Shown: positions 3,550-37,977 of the stretch, piece after piece
Numbering within the stretch: position 1 is the stretch's first letter
How the letters are laid out: each line of letters begins with the position of its first letter
Assembly (NCBI GenBank): GCA_949915775.1
Contig: CATLEG010000008.1
Span: 1-37,977, forward strand
DNA: 37,977 nucleotides
Origin: an uncultured Candidatus Melainabacteria bacterium
Lineage (GTDB): Bacteria; Cyanobacteriota; Vampirovibrionia; Gastranaerophilales; Gastranaerophilaceae
Reading direction: 5' to 3'
Program-made: the position numbers and the translations under genes
The notes under the pieces: model-generated
Told to the model about the DNA's origin: nothing
The model's input: only the letters and a program-made list of their open reading frames with translations
Database searches by the model: none

Positions 3550-4149
3550 ATGCAAGAAGCAACTACACAAGAAATTGAACAACTAAACACAATCCGCGAA
3601 AAATGTCTGGCATGTCAAAAATGTCCGCTTGGTAAAACTCGTACAAATACGGTGTTTTCAGGCGGTATTCCTAATCATAAACTTATGCTTATCGGTGAAG
3701 CTCCAGGATATTATGAAGATCAGAAAGGTGAACCTTTTGTCGGTAAAGCAGGGCAGCTTTTGGACAGAATTTTTGCATCTGTCGGTTTGTCTCGTCAAAA
3801 AGATGTTTATATATGCAATACTCTAAAATGTCGTCCGCCTGATAACCGAGACCCGCTTCCCGAAGAAAAAGAGGCTTGTAGAGAATATTTGGATGCACAA
3901 ATTGAAATTTTAAAACCCCGTATAATTCTTCTTTGCGGGCGTGTTGCTGTACAATCTATGCTTGATACAAATCAGGGTATTACAAGAATTCGCGGAAAAT
4001 GGTTTGCTGGTCCAAACAATTCTAAGATGATGCCGATTTTTCATCCGTCCTATTTACTCAGAAATGACAGCCGCGAAAAAGGTAGTCCGAAATGGCTTAT
4101 GTGGCAAGATATTCAGGAAATCAAAAAAGTCTACAGCCAGATGGATTGA
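3550..4149 (+). CDS. family 4 uracil-DNA glycosylase, Fe-S type
   Basis: This 199-residue enzyme removes uracil from DNA as the first step of base excision repair. Four cysteines at 22, 25, 94 and 110 (CQKC, LKCRPP and EACREYL) match the 4Fe-4S ligands of family 4 glycosylases. GEAPG (49-53) with downstream ED is the active-site loop, and HPSYLL (165-170) is the second conserved motif with its His. Length is typical. The start ATG follows a GC-rich repeat whose GGGAGAGG serves as ribosome site. It is likely a single-gene unit or cotranscribed with the XRE regulator 38 bases upstream. Confidence 0.93.
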   Translation: MQEATTQEIEQLNTIREKCLACQKCPLGKTRTNTVFSGGIPNHKLMLIGEAPGYYEDQKGEPFVGKAGQLLDRIFASVGLSRQKDVYICNTLKCRPPDNRDPLPEEKEACREYLDAQIEILKPRIILLCGRVAVQSMLDTNQGITRIRGKWFAGPNNSKMMPIFHPSYLLRNDSREKGSPKWLMWQDIQEIKKVYSQMD

Positions 4150-4192: not shown

Positions 4193-4243
4193 TTTCTCTG
4201 AAAGAGAGGTTTTTATGTTAAATTTTATGTTTAAATCCCTTTC

Positions 4244-4253
4244 GGGGGGGGGG
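4244..4253 (+). repeat. G10 homopolymer tract, possible phase-variation switch
   Basis: Ten consecutive G lie 29 bases inside the frame opened by the ATG at 4215. With ten G the frame ends at TAA 4257-4259. With eleven (or eight) G it runs without a stop into the prepilin frame. The preceding CTTTC is also found, inverted, at the tract of the second prepilin gene. Confidence 0.8.
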
Positions 4254-4303
4254 CACTAACCGCCATTTCGCAAGGGCTTCAGGGTTATAATTCTGGAAGA
4301 CTT

Positions 4304-4972
4304 TTGTGTAAAAAAGCATTTACGCTGGCTGAAGTTTTGGTTACTCTCGGAATTATAGGGGTTGTTGCATCTCTAACCATGCCAACGCTTATTCAAAATC
4401 ACAAAAAGAAAGTTACGGCTGTTAAGTTAGAAAAATTTTATTCTATTATGACTCAGGCGATTGAAAGTTATGAATCAGAAAGAAACTTGCTACCTGAAGA
4501 TATGCGTATTCCGGCGGATACTGTTCAAAATGGTAAAAATCTTCAAGTTTGGTATAATAACACATTTGGAAAGTATTTAAAATCGGTTTCTCAGAAATCT
4601 TCAGATCTTGGTTTTCTTGTTCTTCTTGCGGATGGTTCAGGATTTAATGCTTATGTATCCGATCATTCTCAGATGCATATTTTCTATTGTACTGAGGCAA
4701 AATATTGTAATAATAAATTAGATGGTTCTGAGGGAAATTTCAATGGACAAACTGGATTTTTATTTGGTTTATATAAAGGAGAATTTATTACATCAGGTCC
4801 AGATTTCCAAAACATGACAAGAGAAGAATTATTAAAACAGTGTTCATACGGAAATACTGAAGATGCAAATGTTTCTGCTGCCGGAAGACGTCATGCTTGT
4901 ACTCGCTTAATTCAAGTTGATGGTTGGGAATTTAAGGATGATTATCCATGGAAGCAAACTATACTTAAATAA
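4304..4972 (+). CDS. prepilin-like protein with type IV pilin/T2SS N-terminal signal; probably phase-variable
   Basis: FTLAEVLVTLGIIGVVASLT is the class III signal peptide and hydrophobic N-terminal helix of type IV pilins and pseudopilins, with Glu at position 5 of the mature form. The residue before the cleavage point is Ala, not the usual Gly. A globular domain follows with six or seven Cys and the C-terminal motif GWEFKDDYPW, shared with the gene at 36852. Only a TTG (4304), with a weak GGAAG upstream, starts the frame as assembled. The ATG at 4215 has a better promoter and ribosome site but is joined in frame only if the G10 tract is 11. That version would have a 35-residue leader. The product is probably an exported pilus or secretion-system subunit. 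Confidence 0.8.
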   Translation: MCKKAFTLAEVLVTLGIIGVVASLTMPTLIQNHKKKVTAVKLEKFYSIMTQAIESYESERNLLPEDMRIPADTVQNGKNLQVWYNNTFGKYLKSVSQKSSDLGFLVLLADGSGFNAYVSDHSQMHIFYCTEAKYCNNKLDGSEGNFNGQTGFLFGLYKGEFITSGPDFQNMTREELLKQCSYGNTEDANVSAAGRRHACTRLIQVDGWEFKDDYPWKQTILK

Positions 4973-36851: not shown

Positions 36852-37763
36852 TTACCAAGGATAATCATCCTTAATTTCCCATCCATCCATCATAATAACG
36901 GCAGCACAGCTATCCCCCGGTGCATAATGATCAGGAGCCGGAGAATCTTTATAACAACCGCCGGTACGTATAGGTCCTTTTAATAAATTGTCTCTTGTTA
37001 TTTTGTTAGAAAAAGGAACAGTGCCATCAGCTCCAAAAGGCAAAAATCTGGGTTTACTTTTATCTTGTAATGTAAAAGTAAAAACATCTTTACCCAGTAT
37101 TGGAATATCCGGATTATTAACATAAATTTTAACATCTATATAACCATATGGATGCCAATAAAACCACCATGCAGTTGCAGAACCCGGATTTATAAGCACA
37201 TAACCGGAGGTTTTACTGGGTTCAGATTTTGGATTACCTAATAACCTAGATCTCTGTATACCAGAACATTTGGCAATAGAATTATGAGGACAAGATGCAG
37301 CTTTATTAAATTTAACATAAGGTTCAATATATTGTTGAACCCACAAAGTAACACCATCTATTCCTGAATAATCCCAATTGGCACCATTTTCGGCAACTCC
37401 CATTTGGAGAGCCTGATTAAGCTCAGAATAAGATTTTTTCAATGTAATTGCAACCCGTTTTTTCTGATGGCTCTCAACCCAACCTGGAATAACAAGCACC
37501 GCCACAATACCGATAATGCCAAGGGTGATTAGGACTTCCGCTAGAGTGAAGGCACATTTCCCCCTCCCTATTTGAGGGGAGGGGGTTAGGGGGTGGGTTT
37601 TATCAGTCTTTAAGCCGTTAAGACGATAGGTCGATAAGTTCTTATCGTGTGCTACGCACACAAAACATGTTCCCTCTCCTGTGGGGAGGGCTAGGGAGGG
37701 GGCTGGTTTGAGATCCTTCGCTTTGCTCAGTATGACGAAAATTTTACACCATAACCAGTTCAA
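36852..37763 (-). CDS. second prepilin-like protein; reading frame extended through repeats, probably phase-variable or decayed
   Basis: FTLAEVLITLGIIGIVAVLV is a type IV prepilin/pseudopilin signal helix, again with Ala before the cleavage site. The globular part contains WVESHQKKR, several Cys, and the C-terminal DGWEIKDDYPW shared with the gene at 4304. No start codon lies near the pilin motif. The frame runs back through four repeat elements to a TTG at 37763, or to the ATG at 37819 with a perfect AGGAGG (seven bases upstream) if the C10 tract at 37785-37794 is 11 long. The leader would then be 90 residues, far longer than normal prepilins. This is either a switchable gene with an unusual leader or one damaged by repeat insertion. 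Confidence 0.7.
   Translation of the reverse strand: MNWLWCKIFVILSKAKDLKPAPSLALPTGEGTCFVCVAHDKNLSTYRLNGLKTDKTHPLTPSPQIGRGKCAFTLAEVLITLGIIGIVAVLVIPGWVESHQKKRVAITLKKSYSELNQALQMGVAENGANWDYSGIDGVTLWVQQYIEPYVKFNKAASCPHNSIAKCSGIQRSRLLGNPKSEPSKTSGYVLINPGSATAWWFYWHPYGYIDVKIYVNNPDIPILGKDVFTFTLQDKSKPRFLPFGADGTVPFSNKITRDNLLKGPIRTGGCYKDSPAPDHYAPGDSCAAVIMMDGWEIKDDYPW
37556..37740. repeat. stack of four repeat elements in the second prepilin leader
   Basis: From the pilin motif outward: a GC-rich family C element (37556-37600, CCCCTCCC and GGGGAGGGGG); one arm of family A (37611-37645, GTTAAGACGATAGG); a second family C element (37670-37702); and a TCAGTATGACGA-type element (about 37703-37740, GATCCTTCGCTTTGCTCAG). 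All are free of stops in the pilin frame. Confidence 0.7.
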
Positions 37764-37784
37764 AATCCTTGCTAAATGGCTTTC

Positions 37785-37794
37785 GGGGGGGGGG
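37785..37794 (-). repeat. C10 (G10 on the plus strand) homopolymer tract near the second prepilin start
   Basis: On the coding strand the tract begins 24 bases after the ATG at 37819 and is followed by GAAAG. At 10 C the frame stops at TAG (37774-37772). At 11 it joins the prepilin frame. The first prepilin gene has the same length and the same in-frame requirement. Confidence 0.8.
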
Positions 37795-37847
37795 CGATGT
37801 GTGAAGTTTTATTAAACATATATTTACCTCCTTAGTTGCTCAGATGG

Positions 37848-37926
37848 GAAGAAGATGACAAGCCAGAAACTTATTTTTGTGCGAAGCACCTTTAATAGCC
37901 TGACCTCTTGACTTCCGTTCTTCCAA
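37848..37926. repeat. palindromic repeat, family D, upstream of the second prepilin gene
   Basis: GGAAGAAGATGACAAGCC (about 37848-37865) is the imperfect inverted counterpart of AATAGCCTGACCTCTTGAC with CGTTCTTCC (about 37894-37926), around a loop of about 28 bases. The right arm is nearly identical to 35608-35640 beside the four-helix-bundle gene. The element lies in the presumed untranslated leader. Confidence 0.7.
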
Positions 37927-37948
37927 GCATCAATTCTTCTTCTAACCC

Positions 37949-37977
37949 ATTATTTACTATTTTTCGCAGTTTGTCAA
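37949..37977 (-). promoter_or_regulatory. putative promoter for the second prepilin gene
   Basis: On the minus strand TTGACA (37977-37972), exactly 17 bases, AATAAT (37954-37949). It would give a leader of about 120 bases containing the family D palindrome before the AGGAGG and ATG at 37819. The sequence ends at the window edge, so nothing upstream can be judged. Confidence 0.55.

Follow-up and report, generated by a model that had tools for sequence, protein, structure and literature searches.

Poly-G and poly-C tracts in the prepilin leaders of a Gastranaerophilales genome: a candidate phase-variable repertoire

Several described systems bear comparison with the tracts analysed here. One group is formed by the poly-G and poly-C loci of Neisseria, among them pilC, in which the homopolymer run lies in the signal-peptide region. 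These loci share with ours a homopolymer of at least nine bases in the 5' part of the gene, an ON or OFF state that depends on the reading frame, and targets related to the pilus. In Neisseria the modal tract length is 9-10, and a genome has about 15-19 poly-G tracts (PMC5953494). The present genome, unlike those of Neisseria, has 60 tracts, and congeners have up to 176; many separate prepilin structural genes would be switched here rather than one pilus-associated factor, and the tracts have a common core that is found on either strand. The phasome of Campylobacter jejuni is similar in that it comprises tens of poly-G/C tracts in coding regions, with lengths near 8-11. C. jejuni NCTC11168 has 29 loci of 7 or more, and flanking sequence is reported to have no influence on slippage (PMC4965091). 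Unlike in C. jejuni, the flanks are conserved here, and most targets are prepilins. Switches based on an invertible promoter or leader also place a short element in two orientations beside surface genes, but the two loci described below have no common inverted-repeat bracket and no site was seen in both orientations. The Rickettsia palindromic element belongs to a kind of dispersed repeat that is inserted in frame in coding sequence. Our repeats are likewise dispersed and in frame, but in the leaders examined they precede the prepilin cleavage motif. No system like the one described below appeared among the titles listed for phase variation, pilins and homopolymer tracts in Gastranaerophilales, Melainabacteria and cyanobacteria.

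The window analysed here is a stretch of 37,977 nucleotides that makes up an entire contig (G000:C8) of a draft assembly with 143 contigs and 2.04 Mb. It contains two prepilin genes with a homopolymer of ten in the leader. We regard these genes as probable members of a large prepilin family subject to slipped-strand phase variation and OFF by default. The family looks like a very large repertoire that switches at random, not one that flips DNA. Poly-G phase variation is a switch ordinary in principle, and what is unusual here is the place and number of the tracts, together with a strand-independent core. If this reading is right, non-photosynthetic gut relatives of cyanobacteria carry one of the larger known poly-G switching repertoires, aimed mainly at pilus-like surface proteins, and rapid surface variation against immunity or phages is predicted in a common gut lineage.

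Two prepilin genes with tracts in their leaders

Locus 1 adjoins an acetolactate-synthase-like gene that is 57-66% identical to its top seven relatives. The top relatives come from MAGs mostly labelled Candidatus Gastranaerophilales or Melainabacteria; two others are filed under Fusobacterium sp. CAG:439 and as an uncultured bacterium. In the ON phase (tract of 11 or 8), prepilin gene 1 occupies 4215..4972 on the forward strand and encodes 252 aa beginning MLNFMFKSLSGGGALTAISQGLQGYNSGRLLCKKAFTLAEVLVTLG. The product matches PF07963 (N_methyl) with an E-value of 9.7e-5, above the cut-off, and with 25.1 bits in a second scan; the class III (prepilin) signal and N-terminal hydrophobic segment are encoded at 4310..4375. 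The G10 tract lies in the leader at 4244..4253, within the core CTTTC-G10-CACTA (4239..4258), which is of the TC-G10-CR type and has G on the coding strand. Translation from the ATG at 4215 ends with G10 at the TAA at 4257-4259 (read by eye) and with 11 Gs enters the prepilin frame, and the leader from the tract to the prepilin motif (4254..4318) is open in the ON phase only. This leader contains the 14-mer GCCATTTCGCAAGG (4262..4275), and GTGTAAAA codes for its end (LCKKAFT). A weak 11-nt inverted pair (91%), at 4122-4132 and 4298-4308, flanks the tract at this locus only.

Locus 2 lies at the other end of the window on the reverse strand. Prepilin gene 2 (36852..37819, ON phase with a tract of 11 or 8) encodes 322 aa, with a long leader that contains dispersed repeats. 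Its PF07963 score was 21.1 against a cut-off of 21.2 in the first scan and 24.9 bits, above the cut-off, in the second; the class III signal and N-terminal hydrophobic segment are encoded at 37491..37565. The coding strand carries a C10 tract at 37785..37794, and the G strand of the core (37780..37796) reads CTTTC-G10-CG, again of the TC-G10-CR type. From the ATG at 37819 the frame stops with C10 at a TAG at 37774-37772 (by eye), while with 11 Cs it runs through a 78-codon leader into the prepilin to give 322 aa. This leader (37551..37784), with its CGTCAT..GAGCAAAGCGAAGGATCT and CCCTC..GGG repeats, is open in the ON phase only. Its 37600-37745 part contains in-frame dispersed repeats of the GTCATMCTGAGCAAAGCGAAGGATCT and CCCTC..GAGGG types, as do many other leaders. 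GTGTAAAA forms the start of a dispersed repeat here, at a distance that differs from that at locus 1. The 5' UTR, the start codon (37819-37817), the C10 tract and the first leader codons belong to a cassette of family A (37740..37960), one feature of which is the 14-mer GCCATTTAGCAAGG (37767..37780). A promoter-like TTGACA-N17-AATAAT was read by eye at the contig end (37949..37977, reverse strand), and homologues with the C-coding tract carry similar promoter-like sites upstream. An Rfam scan of the window found zero known RNA elements upstream of the tracts.

Both genes have the class III signal and N-terminal hydrophobic helix (PF07963) of type IV prepilins. Like contingency loci, they combine an in-frame homopolymer of at least nine bases with a reading frame that depends on its length; in family B (below), the length also differs between close copies.

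Reading-frame arithmetic across the prepilin family

The genome contains 60 runs of nine or more Gs, with C next on the G strand in 52; no run of nine Gs arose in 100 dinucleotide shuffles of the window. It also has 82 matches to the PF07963 prepilin N-terminal motif, 70 of them individually above the cut-off. A tract lies upstream within 1.1 kb of 25 of these matches and is absent from 18; the remainder are near a contig end on the upstream side (23) or on contigs without known extent (16). Peptidase_A24 (PF01478) was found at E 1e-5 in 31 of 32 congeners and was not found in this draft (G000). Congener G010 is the other genome with no match at that threshold. In the present genome, with its 82 prepilin-motif matches, the lack of a match may reflect a gap or divergence. 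MutS1 is encoded here and in nearly all other genomes examined, which gives no hint of a MutS-deficient background. Loss of mismatch repair was rejected as the cause of the tracts on this ground.

Further counts draw on 59 distinct tract contexts from this genome (one of the 60 was dropped as identical) and on a set of 188 tracts that adds stretches from G004, G013, G032, G029 and G034, homologous loci and named loci. A prepilin motif follows within 1 kb downstream, on one strand or the other, in 112 tracts (not counting leaders with N). In 99 of them the reading frame stays open all the way to the motif, where shuffled leaders would give 23.2; when only leaders of at least 40 codons are taken, 39 of 50 are open and 0.57 would be expected. 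Eight of the 13 closed leaders are in this genome, where leaders built from in-frame dispersed repeats extend up to 299 codons. The frame arithmetic was done on 93 prepilins, with three dropped for N. ATG, GTG and TTG are all absent between tract and motif in 42 of the 93 leaders, and ATG alone is absent in 66, so many prepilins need an upstream start and are read through the tract.

The ON length is 11 in 80 of the 93 prepilins, and the assembled length is 10 in 76. As assembled, 10 are ON, 67 lack one base for ON and 16 have one too many (modulo 3); because draft homopolymer lengths may be off by one, these calls are uncertain. The excess at exactly one short is unlike free random slippage alone (chi-square p ~2e-14, a value that is too small because related leaders are not independent). 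The tract genes that do not encode prepilins differ. From 42 loci of the 'orf' class, 14 were retained once family B, short, masked, TLAEI-type and other-genome loci had been excluded. In this small set, with ON length taken from the longest reading frame, the ON length is 10 in 9 of 14, and 7 of 14 are ON as assembled against 10 of 93 prepilins (Fisher p 0.001, computed over related leaders that are not independent). Prepilins thus look set OFF at the modal length and other genes set ON. Pfam searches of six non-prepilin products gave an OmpA domain in one, a weak NodZ (fucosyltransferase-like) match in another and none in four.

These data suggest how the system may work. The tract sits within the first 5-25 codons of the leader, and replication slippage in living cells would alter its length. 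With 11 (or 8, 14) bases, translation from the upstream start would run into the prepilin frame; with 10 or 9 it would meet an early stop. Prepilin peptidase would then be expected to remove the leader, whose content would be nearly free, so that long in-frame repeats could be tolerated and the tract could lie on one strand or the other. Loci 1 and 2 would be members of a repertoire with tens of such genes per genome across the genus. Since most prepilins would be OFF at the modal length of 10, each cell would express and display a random small subset, and the surface would vary from cell to cell.

The main competitor, which we consider unlikely, is programmed slippage, in which the tract is fixed at ten and RNA polymerase adds a base or the ribosome slips back by one to give a low constant level of prepilin. 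The one-base deficit of 67 of the 93 prepilins fits this model, and so does the length itself, which is exactly 10 in 135 of the 188 tracts and in 90 of the 109 with a TC..CR flank. However, near-identical copies of one cassette family (family B, below) span 9 to 12, and the 16 prepilins at ON plus one and the 10 at ON do not fit a fixed offset. The non-prepilin genes are mostly in frame at 10, which makes a general +1 shift unneeded, and G runs and C runs are both used. The tracts, the open leaders, the frame arithmetic, the size of the family and the length differences among copies are all seen in the sequence.

A strand-independent core across the genus

The 33 genomes of this Gastranaerophilales genus contain 2022 tracts of nine or more Gs, from 0 to 176 per genome (one genome has 0 and two have 1). 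Two genomes from other genera of the same family have 35 and 13, and 23 more distant genomes have 0-6 each. The exact sequence TC-G10-CR on the G strand accounts for 1115 of the 2022 tracts and is present in 29 of the 33 genus genomes and in none of the 25 outside genomes; a reversed-pattern control gave 6 occurrences in the genus. Flanks were compared among 49 G-coding prepilin tracts (redundancy-reduced), 29 C-coding ones and a remainder of 41 from outside this genome. On the G strand, all three groups have T and C before the tract and C and A/G after it. C stands at -1 in 96%, 76% and 78%, respectively, and at +1 in 96%, 83% and 85%. In the non-prepilin genes, C is found at -1 in 13 of 14, and C at +1 and a purine at +2 in 14 of 14. 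Where C is not present on both sides, the length is exactly 10 in 23 of 40 tracts, compared with the 90 of 109 given above for those with the TC..CR flank.

The similarity of G-coding and C-coding flanks in the G-strand sense is 0.318 against 0.277 in shuffles (position permutation 3/300), and at a lag of +1 it is 0.325, slightly above lag 0. It appears modest once shared descent is allowed for, so the case for the core rests mainly on the flanks of unrelated genes and on the genus counts. In congeners G002 and G006 (L265, L266, L348-L375), the tracts of prepilin leaders are almost without the TC..CR core and have lengths of 9-15. The core is therefore lineage-bound and dispensable for having tracts.

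Conservation of the flanks whatever the coding strand or gene, together with a length held tightly at 10, would be expected if a factor bound TC-G10-CR as an operator and controlled a regulon, with the frame arithmetic incidental. This seems very unlikely. The sites are within reading frames, close behind the start, and one phase of the leaders is open much more often than chance allows. In G002 and G006, tracts that lack the core occupy the same position. Under slipped-strand phase variation, the occurrence of TC-G10-CR in both orientations would reflect tract-plus-flank sequence copied or selected at the DNA level. Flanks are reported as neutral for slippage in C. jejuni (PMC4965091), so selection on slippage rate is no obvious cause of the core. 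Its origin may lie in copying of short tract-plus-flank pieces or in selection on a bound or processed site. The strand-independent core raises the question by what route a homopolymer, together with its flanks, reached unrelated genes. One tentative extension, for which we see some but rather less than even chance and which should be taken as improbable on balance, is that TC-G10-CR is a dedicated strand-independent DNA switch element of about 14 bp that is copied in both orientations into new genes and kept at exactly ten Gs. Such an element would keep the prepilin repertoire one base from expression, as a coordinated, genome-wide, default-OFF form of bet-hedging.

A search of a viral collection gave 12 contigs with GTC-G10-CA. 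One of these, L396 (an IMG/VR contig), has 35% G+C, a C-coding tract, an FTLAEV prepilin and the same promoter-like site as C-coding leaders; its G+C content and its C-coding FTLAEV prepilin make it probably bacterial chromosome. The FTLAEV-type motif was not found in the examined stretches of the other 11, and three further core or cassette patterns had no matches in the collection. Carriage of the core by phages was rejected on these results.

Cassette families and the orientation of the tract

The original prediction concerned the relation between the two loci. It had noticed that the tract pieces stand in opposite orientation, and this is correct: CTTTC-G10 at 4239-4253 on the forward strand and C10-GAAAG at 37794-37780 on the reverse strand are exact reverse complements over 15 nt. 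The downstream words that it listed are also present, namely the two 14-mers (4262-4275 and 37780-37767) and, later at both loci, GGTTAT and GTGTAAAA. The common downstream sequence that it saw in them consists of one shared 14-mer with 1 mismatch, and the match ends there with no extension. The local score of this coding-sense match was reached by 6 of 2000 dinucleotide shuffles (p ~0.003). Genome-wide the 14-mer occurs 4 times, at locus 1 and in three family A copies. After redundancy reduction of the prepilin leaders, a single one of the 47 G-coding and a single one of the 29 C-coding leaders contain it, and these are loci 1 and 2 themselves. Across leaders, the coding-sense downstream flanks of the two classes have a similarity of 0.225 against 0.238 in shuffles. 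The 15-nt identity is, on the sequence comparison, one case of the genus-wide core.

A transferable leader cassette had been proposed for both loci and holds for locus 2, so that this part of the proposal is partly supported. The family A module of about 220 nt comprises the promoter-like site, the start and C10. With a 221-nt query from locus 2, at least 24 matches of 74-100% identity were found in this genome, ranging from short pieces to the full length; this number is a lower bound, with 24 of 68 candidates scored. Fourteen copies have a readable tract and 5' part, and all are C-coding. Among the 32 congeners searched with the same query, 17 gave matches, in pieces of about 90 nt or less only. 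Full copies here and only pieces in congeners indicate that the cassette multiplied in this species. One copy, L054, is ON at 10 and lacks the CG pair that precedes the tract in most others. Locus 1 does not have the upstream part of family A, and the cassette is not common to the two loci. Their similarity is limited to short words, while that of locus 2 to its family is not. Direct inversion of a family A segment was considered as the source of locus 1 and rejected; beyond the tract, only TTTC-G10-C matches (by eye).

A second module, family B, has 25 copies, all G-coding and most with ..AATCCCGTC-G10. The word ATCCCGTC precedes the tract, the 8 bases before which are identical in all 25, and tract length is 9 in 6 copies, 10 in 15, 11 in 3 and 12 in 1, a spread among copies inside one genome and not among isolates. 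In family B loci such as L066, L071 and L088, TTGAAA..TGTTAAACT/TATACT lies upstream and ends about 7 nt before the ATG (by eye). It looks like a promoter for a leaderless mRNA.

A tract inverted relative to its flank had been taken as a hint of an invertible leader, in which a recombinase would flip the tract piece from G-coding to C-coding. The 15-nt reverse complement, the presence of the same short core in both coding orientations across the genus and the G-strand likeness of the flanks (0.318 against 0.277) would suit such a switch. Active inversion nonetheless finds no support and is highly improbable. Orientation is constant in 14 of 14 family A and 25 of 25 family B copies, inverted repeats bracketing both tracts and common to loci 1 and 2 were not found, and promoters and starts differ between G- and C-coding leaders. 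Homologous sites agree. Homologues of locus 1 in congeners fall into two recurring neighbourhoods (by eye), with others located elsewhere. In the first, both tract-bearing members are C-coding and a third has no tract; in the second, 4 of 4 are G-coding. No flipped orientation was seen at these sites (2 C, 4 G, one without a tract). We give as little credence to an assembly artefact, with collapsed repeats or wrong homopolymer lengths producing the pattern in a draft of 143 contigs: 29 of the 60 tracts have a contig end within 400 nt, which is expected if the neighbouring sequence is repeated, but tracts also occur mid-contig and in 31 of 32 congeners, some of them assembled into 5-30 contigs, and the reversed-pattern control is near zero.

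Two minor observations concern the prepilins themselves. Often, two copies of the word FTLAE(V) enclose a short insert (such as FTLAEVFSPCRKVKLNFGFTLAEVLIT or FTLAEGATHV...AFTLAEVLIT), as seen in 11 prepilins: L042, L046, L066 and L083 in this genome and L309, L311, L313, L327, L330, L344 and L161 in relatives. It looks as though the word served as an insertion target for repeats and was duplicated in the process. At L044 (G000:C4:26887), the ON frame joins a prepilin N-terminus to repeats that resemble those in the heads of trimeric autotransporters.
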